A stretch of 47,984 bases of DNA from an uncultured Bacilli bacterium (GTDB lineage: Bacteria; Bacillota_I; Bacilli_A; RF39; UBA660): positions 1 through 47,984 of the forward strand of contig CANQCI010000008.1 of NCBI GenBank assembly GCA_947589675.1, written 5' to 3'. A program made the translations under genes and the position numbers. Below, in pieces: positions 1 to 47,907 of the stretch. Below the pieces are notes generated by a model. The model searched no databases, was not told where the DNA came from, and saw nothing but the letters and a program-made list of their open reading frames with translations. Each line of letters begins with the position of its first letter. The stretch's first letter is position 1.

Positions 1-1784
1 ACTGTTCCACCTGTAATATTTACGGTGACATTATATTCTAATTTAGGAATTGTAACTGTACAGGTTGTTGCCGCTGTTACATTACTGGCTGTCAAAGTTT
101 TATTGCTATTACTTAAAGCACAACCGGTTCCAGCCACTGTTGCCTTACTTAAATTATAGCCAGTCGTGGCTGCTATGGTAAAAGTTGTACTTTTACCATG
201 GTCGACTGTTGCTTGCGTAGGTGTAGCCGTTCCACCTGATACAGTTGCTTTGACTAAATAATTATTTAATGTCGTTCCTTTATAACTAGCATCTTCGAAT
301 ATTTTTTCACGATTGTTACTATCTGTTACTTTGATTTTAAATGTATATGGAGTTGCCTTGGTTAAACTTGTAAATAAATAAGAATATGTTTCACTTGTAT
401 TTGTTGCTAGATACCAATTAGCATCACCATTTTTTTGATACTCTACTTTAGTTACAGTGCCTGTGCCATTATTAAATGTTCCATTTACTTTTATAACACT
501 TGAGGTTATATCTGATACTGTAAAAGATTTAACACTGGGATAAACATAGGTTTCGGTACTTTCTGTTTTATCAAAACTTCCCACAGACTCTTTATCTAAC
601 TCATCTCTTACTTTAACTTGAATATTATATGTGCTTGTATCAACTAATCCAATAAATTCAAAGGTATCACTTGTTTGCCATGCACTCCAGCTTCCATAGG
701 TATCATGATTTTCTATTTTAAAAGCATATTCCTTTACATTCTTAGTTCCAGCAATAGCAGTTGCTTTTATTTTGATACTATTTAAAGTTCTACTTAAAAC
801 CGTAAAATCAGTCACTTGAACTCTTGTATATTTATCAGTTTTGATGATGGCTGTTTTGACACTACTTCTTATCCCCTGAGCATCTTCTTCATAAGCATAG
901 ATTTTATAATTTTGGTTATCATTTAATTCATTAAATGTATAACTATTTTTATCACTTGCGTGATAAGTTGGTTCTAACTTTTCAGCAATACTCATAATGC
1001 TAGCACTTTCCGGTTCTTCATCAGTTGCTTCAATTGCAAAATAATATTTATCAATTTTTGATGAATGTAATTCATTTTCAATTAAACTAACAGTTATACT
1101 TTCATAAGTTTTAGAGTCTTCTTTGATACTATTTATCTCAGGTACTACATATGTATCCTGTGTATCCGTAGTTATTAAAACTTTACCTGAAAATGACTTA
1201 CCTGCATTTAAAGCTTGATTAGTACTTAAATTCCTTAAGATAACTTCAAAGTTCCAAGTTTCCGTAGTTCCATCTTCACTAGTCGCATCAATTGCATCAG
1301 CAAGAGCTATTTTAAAAGAACCCTCACTTTTAGTGATATCAAAACCTTCTAATTCATCATGATAATTTAATCCCTCGATACTCTTTAAAGGATTACCATC
1401 AGGGTCTTTTACTTTTAATAAAACTTCAACTTCTTTATTTTCAGTTGTATAAATAAAATCATTGGCATCGATGATAAAATAAACATTATATTTTTCATGA
1501 GCTTCATTCGTGGTATTATTAGGTACTAATCTAGCTGTGGCTGTTGTTTTACCCGATTTATTATCCCCACCCTCATAAAAATCATCGGCTGATGCTTTAA
1601 TACTAATTGATTCACCGACAGCAAAAGTTAGCGAGTCTGTCGTATCAGAATTAATGTTGATAAAAGCACTAGCTCCTTGCCCTTTTTGGGCTTGAAAAAA
1701 AGCATAAGTTGCACTTATTACGACAAGTAAAAGTGTAAACAATGTAAACATAATTAAACCTTTTTCTTTTCTAGATTTATTCAT
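1..1784 (-). CDS. SipW-type signal surface protein, family member 1 (C-terminus beyond window)
   Basis: The frame is open from an ATG at 1784 to the window edge, giving at least 594 residues. The N-terminus has a short basic stretch, a hydrophobic segment and VVISATYAFFQAQKGQG, followed by a TTDSLTF segment. This is the SipW-cognate signal class also seen in the genes at 9464, 35766 and 40096. The middle carries fibronectin-like modules. The last visible part has glycine/threonine-rich repeats of the Listeria/Bacteroides type, with TVDHGKSTTFTIAATTGY and a second unit starting YNVTVNITGGT at the edge. The Shine-Dalgarno sequence GAGGGTG lies 8 nt before the ATG. It is presumably a secreted or cell-wall adhesin. 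The C-terminal anchor or variable domain is not visible. The promoter contains a T15 tract. Confidence 0.85.
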   Translation of the reverse strand, partial: MNKSRKEKGLIMFTLFTLLLVVISATYAFFQAQKGQGASAFININSDTTDSLTFAVGESISIKASADDFYEGGDNKSGKTTATARLVPNNTTNEAHEKYNVYFIIDANDFIYTTENKEVEVLLKVKDPDGNPLKSIEGLNYHDELEGFDITKSEGSFKIALADAIDATSEDGTTETWNFEVILRNLSTNQALNAGKSFSGKVLITTDTQDTYVVPEINSIKEDSKTYESITVSLIENELHSSKIDKYYFAIEATDEEPESASIMSIAEKLEPTYHASDKNSYTFNELNDNQNYKIYAYEEDAQGIRSSVKTAIIKTDKYTRVQVTDFTVLSRTLNSIKIKATAIAGTKNVKEYAFKIENHDTYGSWSAWQTSDTFEFIGLVDTSTYNIQVKVRDELDKESVGSFDKTESTETYVYPSVKSFTVSDITSSVIKVNGTFNNGTGTVTKVEYQKNGDANWYLATNTSETYSYLFTSLTKATPYTFKIKVTDSNNREKIFEDASYKGTTLNNYLVKATVSGGTATPTQATVDHGKSTTFTIAATTGYNLSKATVAGTGCALSNSNKTLTASNVTAATTCTVTIPKLEYNVTVNITGGT

Positions 1785-1809: not shown

Positions 1810-1836
1810 ATTTTACTAAAAAAAAAAAAAAATCAA
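1810..1836 (-). promoter_or_regulatory. Promoter of family member 1 with T15 spacer
   Basis: On the minus strand TTGATT (1831-1836) is followed by TAAAAT (1810-1815) with a 15 nt spacer made almost wholly of a 15-base homopolymer (1818-1832). Spacer length would change with every slippage event. The same T run follows a hairpin-forming stretch at about 1833-1870 downstream of asnB, so it may also be the U-tract of the asnB terminator. Confidence 0.5.
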
Positions 1837-9262: not shown

Positions 9263-9307
9263 ATTTTTATCTTTTAAAATCCAAAAAGATGGTAAAGTAC
9301 GGTTCTT

Positions 9308-9455
9308 AACATTAAGGAGTGATAAGTTAAAACATCACTTTTTTTCGTATTTTTAAAAGAAATAACTTTCTATAAATTATTGTATCACGTTTGTTATTTA
9401 TGTCTTTTTTGGTAAATAAAAAAGCAATGAAAATTTATTTCATCACTTTAATCTT
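9308..9455 (+). repeat. MITE-like element, left inverted copy
   Basis: This ~148 bp stretch is, over nearly its whole length, the reverse complement of 11661-11813 with scattered mismatches. Its outer end reads GTTCTTAACATTAAGGAGTGAT (from 9302), split here as GTTCTTAACATT and AAGGAGTGAT. The other end lies about 8 bp past the stop codon of the gene at 9464-11551. Internal hairpins (GTGAT/ATCAC and ATGAAA/TTTCAT arms followed by T runs) could act as transcription terminators on both strands. No ORF is inside. Confidence 0.75.
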
Positions 9456-9463
9456 TATATCCT

Positions 9464-11551
9464 CTATCCTAATATTATCGGATTACTACTTGTTCCCTCA
9501 CCCCAGACATACATCACATTGGAGTTGAGATAGAAGGACGGGCGCGCGGCATAGCTAGCAGTAGTCGTCAAAGGCGCAGTCACACACCCAAACGTATTAG
9601 CACCGAAGGCGTGAGTAGGAGCACTTGTATTTGGCGTGATAAACCAAAAATCATCACCAATCCAAGTCCAGTTATCCCAGGCGGCTAACCGATAATCTTG
9701 CAAAGTTGATACATATCCGGGCAAGCTCCATCTATCTTTCGTAGCCCCATAGTAATAATCGGTAACATACATCAAACCAATTTTGGCTGAATGAGTTAAT
9801 GGGGTCTTGGAATCGCCAAGTTCATTTTCATAAGCGGTGCGTGCTCCTTGTTCATGACCTAAAGGATATGTCATGCCACCCACTTGCCATTCAGTCGTAG
9901 CAATCATGTTAGCCCAATCATTTAATTTTCCAAGATATGTTTCATTTAAATTATGCGTATTTAATTCACTATTGCTCCAAACATTTTGCCCATTTTTATC
10001 CCAAGTGTACCTTGGCCACTCATCATGATTGCCAAGATAGGTATTATATGGACCTCGAGAGCCAGAACTAGCAAAATCACCATCTTCACCGAGTAAATCT
10101 TTCCCCGCTTCATCGGCTTTCACTAATTTTATTTGATATTCATTTCCTATTTTAAAAGCTCCGATTATCCGATAGAGATTTTCGACATTTGAACAATCCC
10201 CACCAAAACAAACAAAGTTTTTAATGTTATTATCACTTATGTAACCAGCGGCAATAGCCTTGGTTAATGCTTGTTTTAATGATGTTAAATTTTCTATATT
10301 TGGATTATAACTTAATGTGTATTTAGGATTAGTTGCACAATAATCATTACTGTTTGTAGATAGAGTTCCATTACAATCTAATTTGATTATATCATTGATA
10401 GTACCATATTGAGCATCCTTGGCTCTTTGGGTTAATTGGTAGTCACCACCTGTAAAGCGATAGGATAAATCATTGGCATCTTGCTCAGTTATAGTTCCAT
10501 TATGATAATATAACTTAGTATCTTCGTACTTACTATTTTTATTATATAAGCCTATTACACATTCTGCTAAATTGCCTCCATTTGGACAAGCATCAGCCAA
10601 TGTCTTTTTCGGAGTTATACTTTCTTCAATTACTTTTACTATTTCTTCATCATTAAAGGATATCTTCGTACTTACTTCATATTTCTTACTTTCCGTTAAA
10701 TTATCAAATGTATAACTATAAACATTTGTATCTTCATTACTGGCTTCATGCCAATCTTTATCTTCATCAGCATTAATTTTAAATGACACATTATCAATCG
10801 TATCCTCATAATCAGATATTGTAGCTATTACTTTCATACTGTCATTAGTTATATTCGTTGTTTCAACTTTGACATTAGGTAAGGTTCCAGCTGTTATAAT
10901 GGCTTGAGCATTAAATGTTTTTCCGGTATTTACTTGTTGGTCATAATCATGATTGATTAATATTATTTTTATTTGCCATGTTTCATCTGCTTTACCATTA
11001 TTTTCATCATCACTTGGTTCAGCACTTATTTCTTCGGTTAATTTAATTGGAATTAAACCGGTGGCTGTTGTTATATCAAATCCTTTAAGAGGATTTTCTT
11101 CATCATCAACATCTGCAACTGATACATATTTTATTGATGTATCATCTAAAGTTTCTAAAGGCTTACCATCTGGATTAATTACTTGTAATATTAGTTCAGG
11201 AATACCTGCTTTGGTATAAACAAATGGATTATTTATTAAATTTAAGTAAACATTATAAGTTTCGGAAGCTGTATAATTACCATTGTTCGCTACCAAGTGG
11301 GCTGACACGGTAGTGTCTCCCTCTTGGTTTGGTTCTCCACTTTTAAAGTTATCACTATTGGCGTCAATAGTAATGGGATTTCCCTTGGTGAATGTCAGTG
11401 AGTCTGTTGTTCCTGCTTCAACATTAATATTAGCACTACCACCTGTTCCCTTTTGGGCGGCAAAGTAGGCATAAGTTGCTCCGATTGCCACCAAAAGAAA
11501 TGCAAGTAATGCTATGACAATTAACTTTTTATTTTTCTTAATTTTATCCAT
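9464..11551 (-). CDS. SipW-type signal surface protein, family member 2
   Basis: This is a 695-residue exported protein. After MDKIKKNKK comes a hydrophobic signal ending GATYAYFAAQKGTGGSA, then INVEAGTTDSLTF and a TasA/camelysin-like first domain, a fibronectin-like linker (about residues 240-330), and a C-terminal lectin-like domain (VCFGG, LYRIIGAF, IGLMYVTDYYYG, ARPSFYLN). This C-terminal pattern resembles DUF6273/C-type-lectin-like folds. I start at the ATG at 11551, with GAGGGTG upstream, because the longer frame runs through the promoter T tract. The 3' end (about 9500-9660) is richer in G and C than the rest. The gene with its promoter lies between two inverted MITE-like copies. It is probably a matrix or adhesion protein. 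Confidence 0.85.
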   Translation of the reverse strand: MDKIKKNKKLIVIALLAFLLVAIGATYAYFAAQKGTGGSANINVEAGTTDSLTFTKGNPITIDANSDNFKSGEPNQEGDTTVSAHLVANNGNYTASETYNVYLNLINNPFVYTKAGIPELILQVINPDGKPLETLDDTSIKYVSVADVDDEENPLKGFDITTATGLIPIKLTEEISAEPSDDENNGKADETWQIKIILINHDYDQQVNTGKTFNAQAIITAGTLPNVKVETTNITNDSMKVIATISDYEDTIDNVSFKINADEDKDWHEASNEDTNVYSYTFDNLTESKKYEVSTKISFNDEEIVKVIEESITPKKTLADACPNGGNLAECVIGLYNKNSKYEDTKLYYHNGTITEQDANDLSYRFTGGDYQLTQRAKDAQYGTINDIIKLDCNGTLSTNSNDYCATNPKYTLSYNPNIENLTSLKQALTKAIAAGYISDNNIKNFVCFGGDCSNVENLYRIIGAFKIGNEYQIKLVKADEAGKDLLGEDGDFASSGSRGPYNTYLGNHDEWPRYTWDKNGQNVWSNSELNTHNLNETYLGKLNDWANMIATTEWQVGGMTYPLGHEQGARTAYENELGDSKTPLTHSAKIGLMYVTDYYYGATKDRWSLPGYVSTLQDYRLAAWDNWTWIGDDFWFITPNTSAPTHAFGANTFGCVTAPLTTTASYAARPSFYLNSNVMYVWGEGTSSNPIILG

Positions 11552-11577
11552 TTTTTCATACACCCTCAATTTTACCC

Positions 11578-11605
11578 ATACTATCAAAAAAAAAAAAAAA
11601 GTCAA
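11578..11605 (-). promoter_or_regulatory. Promoter of family member 2 with T15 spacer
   Basis: TTGACT (11600-11605) and TAGTAT (11578-11583) on the minus strand are separated by 16 nt, nearly all of it a T15 homopolymer (11586-11600 on the other strand). The start codon at 11551 follows at a normal distance with a GAGGGTG ribosome-binding site. Slippage in the homopolymer would alter -35/-10 spacing. Confidence 0.7.
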
Positions 11606-11660
11606 GAGAACATTTGTTTGCATTTATTCAAAAAAAGATTTTTTTCTTTAATCAGTTCTT

Positions 11661-11813
11661 AAACATTATGGAGTGATGGAATAAATTTTCATTGCTTTTT
11701 AATTTACCAAAAAAGACATAAATAACAAGTATGGTTACAATAATTTATAGAAAGTTATTTCTTTTAAAAATGCAAAAAAAAGTGATGTTTTAACTTATCA
11801 CTCCTTAATGTTT
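11661..11813 (+). repeat. MITE-like element, right copy with terminal inverted repeats
   Basis: This 153 bp element has its own terminal inverted repeats: it begins AAACATTATGGAGTGAT and its end is the reverse complement of AAACATTAAGGAGTGAT. The body is the inverted counterpart of 9308-9455. It has no coding capacity. It lies between the promoter of the surface gene (11578-11605) and the 3' end of ligA, and its terminal GTGAT/ATCAC hairpin is followed by A/T runs, so it may insulate the two units. Confidence 0.8.
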
Positions 11814-11832
11814 AAAAAACTAAAGTAGCTTC

Positions 11833-13860
<2,028 letters not shown>

Positions 13861-28582: not shown

Positions 28583-28652
28583 AAAAAATCCTCCTAATCT
28601 TGGATTTAATATATATCTTTGTAGTAAGAGAATATTTTACTTTTTAATTATA

Positions 28653-28738
28653 TATTTTACGAGTATCCAAACCCCGTAGTAGCATCCGCCGAAAAATTCG
28701 ATAACCACTATCCTCGTCAACTTAAAAGTTCAGGCGCT
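28653..28738 (-). ncRNA. glmS ribozyme-riboswitch
   Basis: In the glmS leader the minus strand reads AGCGCCTGAAC at the cleavage site (cut expected after the A at 28738). The conserved core blocks GTTGACGAGG, GGTTATCGA and TCGGCGGATGC follow, ending near CTCGTAAAATA. These match the glmS ribozyme, which cleaves the mRNA when glucosamine-6-phosphate binds. P1 is very short here (AACTTTTAAGTT). Boundaries are approximate. Confidence 0.93.
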
Positions 28739-28881
28739 CATTATAATTAACTTAAACTCCCCTCCTAAAGTTAATACTATAACTAATTAAATTATACAAA
28801 AAAAATAAATAAAAATCATTAACTTCCATATAAATTTATGTTAATATTTATACATATTAATTAAATAAAGAGGTCATAGTT

Positions 28882-29177: not shown

Positions 29178-31070
29178 ATGAATAATAATGTACCGACTGT
29201 GGATGATACAGTCAATAATGAAAATCAAAATTCTCTTAACAACGGGTTTTCAAGCGGACCAAATGCTGGAGCAAATGGAGGCACTCCTTTAAATGAAGTC
29301 CCTACTATGCCTAACCAAGCAAATCAAAATTCTCTTAACAACGGGTTTTCAAGCGAACCAAATGCTGGAGCAAATGGAGGCACTCCTTTAAATGAAGTCC
29401 CTACTATGCCTAACCAAGCAGGTCAAAATCCGGCGATAGATGCCAGTTTTCCTGCTACAACCCCACCTAATACAACAACCCTTGGCAATGCTCAAGCAAG
29501 CCAAATGCCTAATCAAAATAATGCTCCTAAAAACAAAGGAACCATTAAAATCGCTATTATTGTTATTGCTATTCTTTTAATTGGCGGATTAGCCTTTGGA
29601 GTTTATGCGTTGTTCTTTGCTCCTAGCAAAACTGATATGTTAAAAAGTGCTATCAATGATGTTTATGCAGGATTTAGTTCTAGTTTAGAAAAATTGGAAA
29701 AGCAAAAAGTAGACATAGATATTTTTAATGATTCCCTTAAATTAGAAGGTGATTTTCAAATTGCTGGTTCTACTTTTGCTAAATTAAAAGATGATAAAAT
29801 TGATTTTACCCTTGGTCTTGATTATAAAAATAAATTAATGGAAGCCAGTGGTAAACTAAGTGAAAAAAATAAAGATTTACTTGATGGAAAAATTATTTTA
29901 AAAAATAATCATTTATATTTAAAAAGTGATAGTCTTTTAAATAATGTTTATGATTTAGGTTCTTATAATTTTGATGACCATGTTGATTTAGGTGATTTAG
30001 AAAATGATTTAAATAGTGTTGATTTACCATCAGCTAGTGATATTGATTTTATCGTTAAAGAATTTAAAGATGCTCTTTTAAATTCTTTAGATGAAAAAAA
30101 CATGAAGCAAGAAAAAGTAGATTTAAGTATTAATAATACTAAAGTTAAAGCCACTAAAATAACTTATACTATTAATAAAGAAACAATGTTAAAGTTAGCT
30201 AAAAATTTAGCAACAGAATTAAATTCTAATGATAACTTAAAAGCTAAATTAGTAGATATATTTAAAATTAATAAAGATGATTATCAAGATGCTTTAGATG
30301 CTATGCAAGATGAAAAGGCATTTGATAGTTTTGAGGGTGAAGGTGAATTTTCTATCTATGCAACTGGTGTTACTCATCAATTCGCCGGGGCAGAATTAAT
30401 TGTCAAAGATGGAGGCAAATTAGCCTTTTATAACAGTGGTGATAATGCTTATTTCATCTTTAATGAAGAAGAAAGTAATGAAACATTAGAAATAACCTCC
30501 GTAAAGGAAAAAGATATTTATGATGTTCGCATCACTATGACTGAGGATAATAAAGCAATTGAAGTTGCTAAACTTACCATAAGAAAACTTACCAATGAAG
30601 AAATTGACCTAGATTATGATTTAAATATTGAAGATACTAAAGCTAGTGGTTCACTTAAATTAACTGGTAAACAAGATAATAAAAATATAACTGGAAAAGT
30701 TGAATTTTCAGTAAATTATACTGAGGACAAAGAAAAATATGATGTTAGCTTCACAGCTAATTATAAAGTAACAGCTGGGCAAAAAATAGCTACTGATAAT
30801 GTATCAACAGCCATATCATCTGAAAATATAACTGATGAAGATATGACTAAAGTTAAGGATAAATTAACAGATTTAGAAAGTTCAAATATATATGACTATT
30901 TAAAAGATGATTTTAATTTTACTAGTGAAATTATCGATTCTTTAGATGAAAGTTCTAATTATAGTTCAATTTATGATAATCAAGAATGTTGGGATAATTA
31001 TTGGGATGCTTTATATAATAAACAAACCTTTGATGGTACTTATGATGAATATTACAAGGCTTATTGTTAA
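29178..31070 (+). CDS. Large membrane-anchored extracellular protein with Asn-rich repeats
   Basis: The product has 630 residues. The N-terminal ~120 residues are cytoplasmic and low-complexity, with two near-identical 33-residue repeats (SLNNGFSS ... TPLNEVPTMPNQ). A transmembrane helix follows (TIKIAIIVIAILLIGGLAFG), then about 480 extracellular residues rich in K, D, E and N in a beta-rich pattern of alternating strands. No catalytic motif is seen. The ATG at 29178 has AGGAAGTGAG upstream. The earlier TTG at 29172 is too close to it. The family is not recognised; a lipoprotein-like or envelope role is possible. Confidence 0.72.
   Translation: MNNNVPTVDDTVNNENQNSLNNGFSSGPNAGANGGTPLNEVPTMPNQANQNSLNNGFSSEPNAGANGGTPLNEVPTMPNQAGQNPAIDASFPATTPPNTTTLGNAQASQMPNQNNAPKNKGTIKIAIIVIAILLIGGLAFGVYALFFAPSKTDMLKSAINDVYAGFSSSLEKLEKQKVDIDIFNDSLKLEGDFQIAGSTFAKLKDDKIDFTLGLDYKNKLMEASGKLSEKNKDLLDGKIILKNNHLYLKSDSLLNNVYDLGSYNFDDHVDLGDLENDLNSVDLPSASDIDFIVKEFKDALLNSLDEKNMKQEKVDLSINNTKVKATKITYTINKETMLKLAKNLATELNSNDNLKAKLVDIFKINKDDYQDALDAMQDEKAFDSFEGEGEFSIYATGVTHQFAGAELIVKDGGKLAFYNSGDNAYFIFNEEESNETLEITSVKEKDIYDVRITMTEDNKAIEVAKLTIRKLTNEEIDLDYDLNIEDTKASGSLKLTGKQDNKNITGKVEFSVNYTEDKEKYDVSFTANYKVTAGQKIATDNVSTAISSENITDEDMTKVKDKLTDLESSNIYDYLKDDFNFTSEIIDSLDESSNYSSIYDNQECWDNYWDALYNKQTFDGTYDEYYKAYC
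29223..29420 (+). repeat. 99-bp tandem repeat, two copies
   Basis: 29223-29321 and 29322-29420 are almost identical at the DNA level. A visible difference changes a Gly to a Glu codon. A third, degenerate unit begins GGTCAAAATCC. The repeat is in frame (33 codons). Confidence 0.9.
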
Positions 31071-35568: not shown

Positions 35569-35590
35569 GGTTACCAAGAATTTATAAAAG

Positions 35591-35661
35591 AACAGGCAAC
35601 ACTTTTTTGCGTGGAAAAATTTGCCTGTTTTCATGTTACTGTAAAAATTTTTATTTTTGTA
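35591..35661 (+). repeat. Stem-loop repeat at the IS right end
   Basis: ACAGGCAA and TTTGCCTGT arms form a terminator-like hairpin downstream of the transposase, followed by CTGTAAAAATTTTTATTTT. A close copy lies at 47838-47907, and a weaker relative at 33730-33775. Confidence 0.75.
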
Positions 35662-35765: not shown

Positions 35766-37913
35766 TTATACGACAATACGGAATGGATGGTCAACATCAC
35801 CTAGTGAATCATCAACTTTAATTTTTACATCTGTGTTAAGATAAAAGGACGGGCGAATCCCGATCGCAATGTCGTTGACGCCGTAGTAGTTAACCACATA
35901 CCCGTCGTTGTAGACAAGGAACGCATAGTTGGAATCGCTGGAGTTGCGCGATATTGTCCATTCATAAACATTATTATATAACCAGTTATTTGCTCGGTTA
36001 CTATTACCATTATTATCATAATTATCTAAAGTTGATATCCAATTTTTTTGTTCACTGGCAAATCCATAGTCCGAAGTATACATCAAACCGATTTGAGCCG
36101 ATACTGTTGGATTTGAAGCTATCTCGGCATCATACATTACTTTTGGTGTTACTTGATGTGAGTTATGTCCTCCGACATGCCACGTTGTTGTTGCTATTTT
36201 ATTTGTCCACGTTGTACCTAGAAAATTTAAGTAACCACTCTCTCCATTATTTAACGCTTGATATAATGTGCTACTTTCCCATGTATTATCAGCTGTTTTA
36301 TTCCAGTAAAACCCATCACTTGGAGCTACTTTTACTCTTTTCAAAGTATCGTAACTTCCTGTACTTGGCTTACCATCACTATCTATTCCTAATTCAGCAC
36401 TGGTTATGTATTCCGACTTGATTAATTTTATTTGGTTGCCAAATACACCAATTATTCGATATAAATTAGTATCAGGACAAGTATCTCCACCATTGTTATA
36501 ATCTTCACTACCATTTCCAAAACAAACAAAGTTATATGGATTATTTCCTGAATAACGATAACTATTATCACCAGCACTATTTTCTAAATCAGTTGTATGT
36601 TGTAATAAAGCTTCTGTTCCTTCTCCTACTTTTGTACCAACTTTACTTATAACAAAATCGGTTAAATTTTGCTCTTTTGGTAATTCGCTTGTTTTCACTT
36701 CTATTGTTTTAATATTCGAAAATACTCCCTCAGCATTTTTAGCTTGAATAATTATAGTATAAGTAGTACTATCCTTTAACCCTGTTATTGTATTTGTTGT
36801 ATTATTAAACTCTGTCCATTCTCCTCCTACAATTTTAGCTCGATATTCTAATGTATCATCTTGATAAGTTAAGGTTATTTTAGATGCAGTTGCACTTGTT
36901 GTTACCTCACCAACTTCTGGTAATACTCCATCCTTAGCTGTAACTACTGTTTCATAAATATTACTTTTATATCCTTGTTCATCGGTAGTATAAGTATATA
37001 TTTTATAATTTTGATTTTCTTCTATTTCTTCACTAAAAGTATGCGTGTTACTTGTTTCTTCTATATATTCTTTTCCTAAAGCATTAGCTATACTTGATAA
37101 CTTTATAGTTTCAGGACTTTCGCTTGTTTTTTCAATGGCAAAATAATAATTAGCTATTTTACTTGTTCCAGTTGTTATATCAGCAACAGCTTCAATACTA
37201 TTTGTTGTAGCTGTAGTTTTAAGAGTATTTACTTCACTTAATTTAAAATCTTCATCAGTTGTAATATAAATACTTCCTTCAAAAGTTTTGCCAGTATTAT
37301 TATTTTGGTCTTGGTCTAAATTAACTAATGTGGCTTCCACTTGCCATGTTTGTTCCGTACCCTCAGCTTCATTAGCATCTATTTCATAATCACTAACTAT
37401 TTTATAAACTTGATTACTACTTGTTGTTATATCATATCCCTTATAAGAAGCATTTTCTTTATCAGTTACATCTTCATAATATTTTAATCCTTCAACTGTT
37501 TCCGTATATTCTTCACTATTAGGATTAGTTATTTTTAAAAGTAATTCAGGTGAACTATTATCCTTGGTATAAACTAAATCATTATTTTCTACTACTAAAA
37601 AGATATTATATGTTTCATGAGCACTATTTGTATTATTGTTAGGAATTAATTTAGCTTTAACTGAGGCTGACTGGGTTATACTTTGATTACTTTTGCCAAA
37701 ATTATCTTGATTAGCAACAATAGTGATATCTCCCTCTTCATTATTAAAGGTAAGTGAGTCCGTTGTTCCAGCTCCGACTTCAATGTTAGCACTACCTCCA
37801 GCTCCCCTTTGGGCAGCAAAGTAAGCATAAGTCGCTCCAATCACTGTTATGAGGAGTAATAATAAAGCTATAATTGCTACCTTTTTATTTTTTATATTAT
37901 CACTTTTTTTCAT
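35766..37913 (-). CDS. SipW-type signal surface protein, family member 3, with atypical 3' segment
   Basis: This is a 715-residue exported protein. The signal ends GATYAYFAAQRGAGGSA, followed by IEVGAGTTDSLTF, a TasA-like domain, two fibronectin-like modules (about residues 225-410) and a C-terminal lectin-like domain (NFVCFGNGS, LYRIIGVFGNQIKLIKSEY, IGLMYTSDYG, NVYEWTISR, IGIRPSFYLN). The last ~35 codons before RPSFYLN (about 35846-35950) end in G or C in 28 of 35 cases, most being NNC, while the rest of the gene is AT-rich. This points to a variable cassette of different origin. The promoter carries a (TA)9 tract. Role: probably adhesion or biofilm matrix. Confidence 0.87.
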   Translation of the reverse strand: MKKSDNIKNKKVAIIALLLLLITVIGATYAYFAAQRGAGGSANIEVGAGTTDSLTFNNEEGDITIVANQDNFGKSNQSITQSASVKAKLIPNNNTNSAHETYNIFLVVENNDLVYTKDNSSPELLLKITNPNSEEYTETVEGLKYYEDVTDKENASYKGYDITTSSNQVYKIVSDYEIDANEAEGTEQTWQVEATLVNLDQDQNNNTGKTFEGSIYITTDEDFKLSEVNTLKTTATTNSIEAVADITTGTSKIANYYFAIEKTSESPETIKLSSIANALGKEYIEETSNTHTFSEEIEENQNYKIYTYTTDEQGYKSNIYETVVTAKDGVLPEVGEVTTSATASKITLTYQDDTLEYRAKIVGGEWTEFNNTTNTITGLKDSTTYTIIIQAKNAEGVFSNIKTIEVKTSELPKEQNLTDFVISKVGTKVGEGTEALLQHTTDLENSAGDNSYRYSGNNPYNFVCFGNGSEDYNNGGDTCPDTNLYRIIGVFGNQIKLIKSEYITSAELGIDSDGKPSTGSYDTLKRVKVAPSDGFYWNKTADNTWESSTLYQALNNGESGYLNFLGTTWTNKIATTTWHVGGHNSHQVTPKVMYDAEIASNPTVSAQIGLMYTSDYGFASEQKNWISTLDNYDNNGNSNRANNWLYNNVYEWTISRNSSDSNYAFLVYNDGYVVNYYGVNDIAIGIRPSFYLNTDVKIKVDDSLGDVDHPFRIVV
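35846..35950 (-). other. GC-rich, NNC-codon tract: candidate variable repeat
   Basis: Reading minus, the sequence changes abruptly after TGG ACA ATA to codons such as CGC, AAC, TCC, AGC, TTC, GTC, TAC, GAC and GGC, and returns to normal use after CGC CCG TCC. AAC-derived NNC codons next to a conserved GC-rich end are the signature of diversity-generating retroelement variable repeats. No template repeat or reverse transcriptase is in this window. Confidence 0.45.
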
Positions 37914-37938: not shown

Positions 37939-37966
37939 ATTATATATATATATATATATTAGTCAA
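37939..37966 (-). promoter_or_regulatory. Promoter of family member 3 with (TA)9 spacer
   Basis: On the minus strand TTGACT (37961-37966) and TATAAT (37939-37944) are 16 nt apart. The spacer and part of the -10 box form a (TA)9 run (37941-37958). Each gain or loss of one unit would change spacing by 2 nt. Confidence 0.75.
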
Positions 37967-40070: not shown

Positions 40071-40099
40071 ATTATATAAAACTTTCTTTTTTAAATCAA
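40071..40099 (-). promoter_or_regulatory. Promoter of tyrS
   Basis: TTGATT (40094-40099) and TATAAT (40071-40076) on the minus strand with a 17-nt spacer set the leader start near 40065. Confidence 0.78.
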
Positions 40100-42036
40100 G
40101 CTATTTTAAATGGTTTTAACACACTTCCATCAGTTCCTGTGGTATTTAATTGTACGGTATCATTTAAATAAAATACGGGACGAACCCCAAGAGTATACAT
40201 CAAATGCCCAGTATTAATGGGGAATATACTACCACTGTAATTAATAGAATAAGCATGAACTGTCCCTGCTCCATCAGTATTAGTATATGGAGTTATTGTC
40301 CATTCATAAACAGCATTATATAGCCAATTATTTTCCCAGTTAGAACAACCAGTATTATTATATTCAGAAAGTTTTTTTGACCAAATTTCTGGAATGGTTG
40401 CATAAGCATAATCACTTACATACATAAGCCCCACATTAGCTGTAACTGTTTTAGTCGTTAAACTTTCGGCATCATACATGGCTTTGGGCGTTATTTCATA
40501 TTCAGTATGTCCTCCAACATTCCAATTGACATTGGCAATTTTACTTTGCCAATCAGCACCTAGTTTACTCCAGTAACCATCATCACCATTTAACTTTTTA
40601 TATAGTTCACTTTCTTCCCAATTATTACTATTAGTATTTATAACTCCTGACCAAGCAAAGCCATTTAAATTAAGTACATCCCCCTTTACTCTTTTTAACC
40701 CCTCATTTTCTTTTCTAGAATCAGGTTTACCTTGATCAGCTATTCCTAATTCATCACCCGTAAGATATTCGGATTTTATTAATTTAACTTGATTACCAAA
40801 TAAACCAATTATCCGATATAAATTGGTATCAGGACAAGTGGCATCTTTACCCTGATTATAGTTTTCACTACCTTCACCAAAACAAACAAAATTATTAGGA
40901 TTACTTCCCGCATAACGATAACTTCCATCTTGAGCACTATTATCAAGTTCTGCTGTATGATGATATAAATTAGTTTTGGTAGATGCATAATTATTTAATT
41001 TTTCAAGACAAGTATTAAGATTTCCGCCTGTTTCACAAACATCAGCTAAAGTATAACTATCACTTATTTTGACATTAAAGGAATTTAGTAATTCAGGATT
41101 ATTTTCATAAGTAACTTTGGTTTCAATTTCATACTTTTTATCAGGTTCTAAACTTTCAAAAGTATAACTATAAACTGGACTGGTTTCTAAATCTAAACCT
41201 TGAATAGGTTCTAACGCTCCTTGATGCCATTCAGCATCCCCTTCGATTTGAAAAGCAACACTATTAATATTACCTACATAATCATTTATGGTTGCCATGA
41301 CTTTTAAGCCAGTATCCCCAACTTCATTGGTTGTTAAATCAACATCAGGGATAGTAGTATGACTAACTATTGCTTGAGCTTTAAAAGTCTTCCCCGTATT
41401 TACTTGTTGATCTTGATCTAAATTAACTAAAATAACTTTAATTTTCCATGTATGATCAGTTTTACCATTTTTTTCTGGTTCCATTTCATTAGGATTAGCA
41501 CTAATCGGATGCATCTTTTTTATAGCCACTAAACCACTTGTCGTAGTAATATCAAAACCTTTAATTTGGGAACCATCTTCTTCCGTACTTTCAATAGTAA
41601 CGGGGGTTAAACCATCGATACTTTCTACTTCATTGCCATCAGGATCAATTACTTGTAAAACTAATTCGGGTGTGCCAGAACTCGTATAAACAAAAGGATT
41701 TTTTTCAATATTTAAATAAACATAATATTGTTCAGTTGCCGTATTATTAGTATTATTAGCCACCAAATGAGCTCTTACTTCGGTTTCGCCATCTCTATTA
41801 CCTTTGCCCTTGGCAAAGTTATCGCTGTTAGCATCAATGGTTATGGCATCACCATTATCAAAGGTAAGAGAATCCGTGGTACCCGCTTCCACATTAATTT
41901 CCGCACTTCCCCCACTACCTCTTTGAGCCGTGAAATAAGCATAAGTCGCACTTATAACGGTTATTAGTAATAGTAACAAAACAATAATACTAGTTTTTTG
42001 ATTTTTAGTCATTTTCTTTTCTTTATTCTCTTTCAT
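40096..42036 (-). CDS. SipW-type signal surface protein, family member 4
   Basis: This 646-residue exported protein has a signal ending SATYAYFTAQRGSGGSA, then INVEAGTTDSLTF, a TasA-like domain, one fibronectin-like region and the C-terminal lectin-like domain (NFVCFGEGS, LYRIIGLFGNQVKLIKSEYL, VGLMYVSDYAYA, AVYEWTITP, GVRPVFYLN). It is closest in layout to members 2 and 3, but its 3' end keeps the normal AT-rich codon use. AGGATAAATAA precedes the ATG. Its promoter has palindromes instead of simple repeats. Likely a cell-surface or matrix component. Confidence 0.87.
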   Translation of the reverse strand: MKENKEKKMTKNQKTSIIVLLLLLITVISATYAYFTAQRGSGGSAEINVEAGTTDSLTFDNGDAITIDANSDNFAKGKGNRDGETEVRAHLVANNTNNTATEQYYVYLNIEKNPFVYTSSGTPELVLQVIDPDGNEVESIDGLTPVTIESTEEDGSQIKGFDITTTSGLVAIKKMHPISANPNEMEPEKNGKTDHTWKIKVILVNLDQDQQVNTGKTFKAQAIVSHTTIPDVDLTTNEVGDTGLKVMATINDYVGNINSVAFQIEGDAEWHQGALEPIQGLDLETSPVYSYTFESLEPDKKYEIETKVTYENNPELLNSFNVKISDSYTLADVCETGGNLNTCLEKLNNYASTKTNLYHHTAELDNSAQDGSYRYAGSNPNNFVCFGEGSENYNQGKDATCPDTNLYRIIGLFGNQVKLIKSEYLTGDELGIADQGKPDSRKENEGLKRVKGDVLNLNGFAWSGVINTNSNNWEESELYKKLNGDDGYWSKLGADWQSKIANVNWNVGGHTEYEITPKAMYDAESLTTKTVTANVGLMYVSDYAYATIPEIWSKKLSEYNNTGCSNWENNWLYNAVYEWTITPYTNTDGAGTVHAYSINYSGSIFPINTGHLMYTLGVRPVFYLNDTVQLNTTGTDGSVLKPFKIA

Positions 42037-43248: not shown

Positions 43249-43603
43249 TAAATAATTTCTCATAAGCCATGTTCTGTCCTTAACAAGTAAGGGGCAAATA
43301 TTTATCTTCGCAAAATTGCGACCTAAGTCTAGTTTTTATTCCTATCCTTAAGCTCCCCGACCATAATTTGGGTTTCTCGCTCGTGGGGTTTACCACGTTC
43401 CACTATTTAGGTTTCCCTAAATACTCGTCTCTTTGGCACTTTTATATCTACTAAAACCCTTTAAGGTTTCCTCGAAGCCGTTAGTTAAAACTACCCTAAG
43501 TTATTTTTTCCTTAGGCACGAACACTACTATCAATTGCAGATAGTGCGAGCATGGACTTTCCTCTACATATTAATTTATGCAGCATTTGCCTCGAAATTA
43601 TTC
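43249..43603 (-). ncRNA. rnpB: RNase P RNA, type B
   Basis: The catalytic RNA that matures tRNA 5' ends. The minus strand has GAGGAAAGTCCATGCTCGC, GTGTTCGTGCCTA, AAAGTGCCA, GTGGTAAACCCC, GAGCGAGAAACCCAAAT and a 3' GAACATGGCTTAT. P1 is formed by AATAATTTC and GAAATTATT. It is about 355 nt, somewhat shorter than the Bacillus RNA (~400). The 5' end overlaps the last codons of gpsB, a gene neighbour conserved in Bacillus. Confidence 0.95.
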
Positions 43604-47749: not shown

Positions 47750-47837
47750 TTATGTTAAAAGAAGAATATCTCCCTTCTTGCCTAACATTATTATATACAA
47801 CTTATTAATAAAGATTCAATATTATAATTTATATTAA

Positions 47838-47907
47838 AACAGGCAACACTTTTTTGCGTGGAAAAATTTGCCTGTTTTAAGTTTCCGTAAAAATTTTTAT
47901 TTTCGTA
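47838..47907 (+). repeat. Solo copy of the IS right-end stem-loop
   Basis: Nearly identical to 35591-35661 (AACAGGCAACACTTTTTTGC and on), differing mainly in CATGTTACT versus AAGTTTCC. No transposase precedes it, so it is a remnant or a separately spread hairpin. Confidence 0.75.

Follow-up and report, generated by a model that had tools for sequence, protein, structure and literature searches.

A T15 tract in the promoter spacer of a surface-protein gene of an uncultured Bacilli bacterium as a candidate phase-variable element

Anatomy and rarity of the T15 tract

The locus described here raises the question of why a run of 15 T residues lies between the -35 and -10 boxes of a gene for a surface-type protein, and whether changes in the length of this run could switch the gene. 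The window, the stretch of 47,984 nucleotides that was analysed, is the entire contig C8 of an assembly of 1.457 Mb in 60 contigs. The gene (9464-11551, minus strand), here called member 2 of a surface-protein family, is preceded on the minus strand by CAAACAAATGTTCTCTTGAC[T15]GATAGTATGGGTAAAATTGAGGGTGTATGAAAAAATGG. This region contains, on the same strand, the -35 box TTGACT (11600-11605), whose last T is the first T of the tract, the T15 tract itself (11586-11600), the -10 box TAGTAT (11578-11583) and a probable ribosome binding site, GAGGGTG, recognised by eye (11561-11567). The initial annotation had placed the two hexamers 16 nt apart with a spacer made almost only of T, and both statements proved exact on re-reading of the minus strand: the spacer of 16 nt consists of T14 and GA, drawn from the T15 run. 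An extended -10 element (TGn) is formed as well, by the final T of the tract together with the G that follows it, and may soften a switch by allowing some activity at any spacing and thus make it graded. The hexamer pair alone is unremarkable, with 4 such matches within 600 bp as opposed to 2.4 in shuffled sequences; the remarkable feature is the tract and its repetition throughout the family.

Exactly two A/T runs of 15 occur in the window, and both are found in promoters of the surface-protein family. The second (1818-1832, minus strand) belongs to member 1 (3-1784, minus strand, running off the contig), where TTGATT and TAAAAT (1810-1815) are separated by 15 nt. Besides these two T15 tracts, no A/T run longer than 8 is present in the window, and the two observed runs of at least 15 compare with 0.07 expected under a first-order Markov model. 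In a census of the genome with a threshold of at least 9, the T runs comprise 26 of 9-11 nt, none of 12-14 nt and 18 of 15-20 nt, the latter accounting for all 110 overlapping T12 matches. Since the first-order Markov expectation, based on the composition of the window, is about 29 runs of 12-14 nt and about 2 of at least 15 nt, long runs are generally avoided and one separate long class exists beside this avoidance. The tract of member 2 is not a product of chance. The downstream gene is known for 15 of the 18 long tracts, while the other three stop at a contig edge and no gene is seen. Fourteen of the 15, including that of member 2, belong to promoters of a single surface-protein family, and the remaining one (C30) precedes a different membrane protein. 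The simple repeat is therefore longer and commoner than chance and, judged by these 15 scorable tracts, nearly exclusive to one gene family.

Other features of the window include a 99-nt tandem duplication with 99% identity within an ORF (29222-29419), and a 78-nt intergenic repeat (83%) with the look of a stem-loop at 35579-35656 and 47826-47903, of which C43 carries a partial copy. A class B RNase P RNA (43258-43598) and a glmS ribozyme (28599-28749) are both ordinary.

The surface-protein family and its diversification

The family is characterised by an N-terminus with a charged stretch and a hydrophobic segment, followed by the motif GATYAYFxAQKGxGGSANIxVxAGTTDSLTF. A search of the genome with the family alignment yielded 89 matches, corresponding to about 50 genes, and relatives of member 2 are present in all 30 genomes of the genus. 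Two further members are encoded in the window, both on the minus strand. Member 3 (35766-37913, 715 aa) has an (AT)9A repeat in its promoter (37941-37959, minus strand), where TTGACT (37961-37966) is followed after a spacer of 16 nt by a TATAAT that overlaps the repeat. Member 4 (40096-42012, 638 aa) has a promoter without a long simple repeat and serves as the contrast case.

Member 2 is a surface-type protein of 695 aa with an N-terminal signal or anchor, a beta-sandwich and a variable C-terminus. The predicted structure supports a beta-sandwich and a fibronectin type III (FnIII) domain at about residues 223-315; confidence is low for the C-terminal half of this model, in which only the FnIII region has backing. 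With TIGR04088, the model of a SipW-dependent signal peptide, the cut-off of 19 was not reached, the best score being 17.4 bits among the hits to two of seven members, and member 2 gave no hit. Elsewhere in the family, other C-termini were observed, namely a pretoxin HINT domain (L033, C12) and a glycine-rich domain of the ALK/LTK type (L043 and L044, C52 and C54). One T15 promoter (L040, C38) precedes a family gene whose frame is broken after 233 residues. Two members without a tract (L085, L088) are accompanied by a divergent XRE-like repressor gene, recognised by eye from its translation, and by palindromes of their own.

At their 3' ends, member 2 and a paralogue on C55 differ almost exclusively at the first two positions of NNT and NNC codons. 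When A was written at every variable position of this alignment, the resulting 36-mer, predicted as the template of a diversity-generating retroelement (DGR), was found exactly (36/36) and only once in the genome, on C55 behind the paralogue. Downstream of it follow a small MutS_I-like protein, an Avd-like ORF and a reverse transcriptase (RT), of which only the first part is present before the contig ends; the partial RT is clearly similar by eye, and the Avd assignment was likewise made by eye and not by a model. The variable repeat of member 2 (9539-9623, minus strand) is changed at 14 of 25 template adenines and at none of the 60 other bases. Member 2 is thus a DGR target, and the template by which it is diversified lies on a different contig. 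A T18 promoter precedes the C55 target, and the cassette lies directly behind that family gene. A second DGR, on C37, has an RT above the RVT_1 cut-off and an Avd-like ORF, and its template matches the variable repeat of member 3 (35849-35950, minus strand), with 13 of 34 adenines and 4 of 72 other bases changed. Both cassettes (G000 C55:2725-4136, L045, and C37, L100) share the arrangement of template, small MutS_I-like protein, Avd-like ORF and RT.

A LexA-like palindrome, CAAACAAATGTTCT (11607-11620, minus strand), abuts the -35 box of member 2. The family promoters on C12, C13, C20 (CGAACATATGTTCG) and C55 carry similar palindromes, as does lexA, so that the loci comprise five family promoters including that of the window, each with its palindrome directly next to the -35 box, together with lexA (L216, L217, L222, L231, L223). 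In the LexA-type motif search overall, 25 hits were obtained compared with 12 in the control, which is only a twofold excess. Control of the member 2 promoter by LexA is possible. On C48 (G000 C48:1979-1992, L229), the upstream part of a decayed member 2 promoter, cut after TTGACTTTTT, was observed beside a tyrosine-recombinase-like gene.

Spacer lengths, recurrence in the genus and rival explanations

The spacers of the 11 complete tract promoters measure 15, 15, 16, 16, 16, 18, 18, 18, 19, 20 and 20 nt. They straddle the range of 16-18 nt, with a mode of 17 nt, that prevails among the 24 perfect TTGACA/TATAAT pairs found in the genome, in which spacers of 16 (7), 17 (12), 18 (4) and 20 nt (1) were counted. 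None of the 11 complete tracts is at 17 nt, which counts against a switch. Three paralogues with interrupted tracts (L059, L087, L090) all have a spacer of exactly 17 nt, as if they were locked in the best register. The promoters on C52 and C54 are near-identical, yet carry T18, T19 and T20, and in a paralogue of member 2 on C20, the tract appears to have contracted to T8, leaving a spacer of 9 nt. Pure runs thus extend from T8 to T20 across paralogous promoters of a single genome.

The same architecture recurs in the genus. The pattern TTG-NN-T11 gave 114 matches, as opposed to 8 for the reversed control, in 24 of the 30 genus genomes, whereas 30 other genera of the taxonomic family gave 4 compared with 2 for the reversed pattern. 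In the relatives, tracts of T13 and longer stand before varied -10 boxes that keep T1, A2 and T6, mostly upstream of secreted or anchored proteins, some of which have a different N-terminus; the tract gene on G003 C10 also resembles the C-terminal half of member 2. In about one third of the relatives, a perfect stem, in many cases capped by a GNRA or UNCG loop, ends exactly at the TTGA of the -35 box before the tract. Stem-loops of this kind precede very long T tracts (L125, L166, L194, L204, L259-L263). Tracts of T30-75 in some relatives known from metagenome-assembled genomes (L240-L263, L194, L249) are too long for any promoter spacer; no simple spacing model accommodates them, and they may reflect faulty assembly.

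Three other explanations of the tract have to be weighed. The stems of the relatives look like terminators that share their U tract with the promoter spacer, and the tract of member 2 could accordingly be read as the U tract of an intrinsic terminator whose role is to stop or insulate transcription from upstream, here that of ligA, with the promoter match being incidental or secondary. A co-directional upstream ORF, found at all 15 scored tracts of this genome, is compatible with this reading, but as it is also found in 17 of 22 members without a tract, it does not separate the two groups and was discarded as a sign of a terminator. Member 2 itself has no hairpin (z scores of +0.2 and +0.8) and no terminator was found at its promoter, many relatives lack a hairpin as well, and a terminator leaves the conserved -10 box at a fixed distance, the restriction to one family and the length of 15-20 T unexplained. 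Termination as the purpose of the tract is thus unlikely; the reading was rejected for member 2 because the hairpin is absent, so that a terminator can at most serve some copies as an additional insulator.

The tract could instead be a fixed structural element, a stiff or curved stretch of A-tract DNA that determines promoter strength and does not slip; the stiffness of homopolymeric A/T DNA and the retention of the tract across the genus speak for this. Such an element needs no pure run, however, and neither the uniform 17 nt of the interrupted versions beside the wide range of the pure runs nor the use of TA repeats in member 3 instead agrees with it, which makes this explanation very unlikely. 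Assembly or sequencing artefacts are more improbable still. Contigs do end in or just after tracts (C13, C14, C15, C20, C26, C39, C40, C41, C43, C51, C52), and the T30-75 tracts of the relatives point in the same direction, but breaks at tracts are also expected from length heterogeneity or from leaders common to paralogues, an artefact would not pick one gene family, and the same oriented architecture is shared by 24 of the 30 genomes of the genus, which were assembled separately.

We therefore consider slippage-driven transcriptional switching the best reading, in view of the bimodal tract lengths, the restriction to one family, the spread around the working spacing, the 17-nt interrupted variants and the genus-wide use. 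It is highly likely, as far as promoter sequences can tell, that the T15 tract serves a sigma-A-type promoter as its hypermutable spacer and that slippage switches the family genes individually. The suggestion of the initial annotation that the spacer could slip and turn expression up or down is thereby partly borne out, namely at the level of anatomy, where the position of the tract, the length differences among paralogues and the repeat of member 3 also speak for it, and a phase-variable promoter is well supported. Replication slippage would alter the tract by single T residues and move the spacing of the -35 and -10 boxes in or out of the working range of about 16-18 nt, so that each family gene would flip reversibly and independently between a stronger and a weaker or silent state. 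With many genes carrying the device, the population would display changing subsets of the repertoire. We infer that slippage takes place in living cells and affects transcription, that the proteins are displayed at the surface and that a selecting force acts, be it host immunity, phages or adhesion. The genome has an intact MutS gene; MutS should slow slippage and could therefore slow the promoter switch. A pattern scan of viral_contigs for strain comparison found nothing. An inverted repeat of about 160 nt (9286-9447 and 11672-11834) flanks member 2 and its promoter; it was considered as a switch and rejected, as no other copy was present among the family loci fetched. Because the repeat encloses both gene and promoter, inversion alone would not alter the expression of member 2.

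Separately from this switching, DGRs would rewrite the C-terminal part of these proteins, and the reach of their templates extends to targets on other contigs. As a tentative picture, which falls somewhat short of probable, a repertoire with two layers can be drawn: the C-terminal tips in a family of about 50 surface proteins are hypermutated by DGRs whose templates act on scattered copies, spacer slippage picks the copies displayed, and the LexA-like box in one subgroup ties this choice to DNA damage or phage attack.

Relation to known systems

Slippage in promoter spacers is known in a few surface genes of mycoplasmas and Gram-negative bacteria. New here is that this promoter anatomy occurs genus-wide in uncultured Bacilli and is linked to a very large surface family. 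Since these genes are DGR targets as well, targeted mutation would converge with randomly chosen expression on a single protein. Existing metagenome reads make it testable whether DGR-bearing cells restrict the variants that they display, and by what means. A limited literature set was searched for RF39 and DGR in combination with phase variation and yielded no paper on the pairing of slippable promoter tracts with DGR targets.

The resemblance to phase-variable promoters of mycoplasma lipoproteins, proposed in the initial annotation, holds for the mechanism, with the poly-A tracts of Vlp and the dinucleotide repeat of Vmm, but not for the protein or the organism. Member 2 has no cysteine in its first 300 residues, which include the N-terminal signal region, and hence no lipobox. 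In-frame TGA is absent from most long ORFs of the window and TGA need not be read as Trp, so that the organism is not a code-4 mycoplasma. In the Vlp system, as outlined in PMC10502178, each variable surface gene has a homopolymeric A/T tract in its promoter region, and insertions and deletions in it switch transcription. The family described here shares such a promoter tract in a variable surface family, whereas it consists of about 50 non-lipoprotein members, belongs to uncultured Bacilli with the standard code, includes DGR targets and has a predicted switch. In Mycoplasma mycoides SC, a dinucleotide repeat is located in the promoter spacer of the single gene vmm (Persson et al., 2002, as described in PMC10502178). 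The dinucleotide spacer repeat of member 3 is similar, but mono- and dinucleotide spacers occur side by side within the one family described here. The retroelements correspond to known DGRs (PMC8144416; PMC3521204) in that template, Avd-like protein and RT lie beside the target and the C-terminal variable repeat is altered specifically at adenines. They differ in that the C55 template matches member 2 on another contig and in that the promoters of the targets carry slippable tracts.
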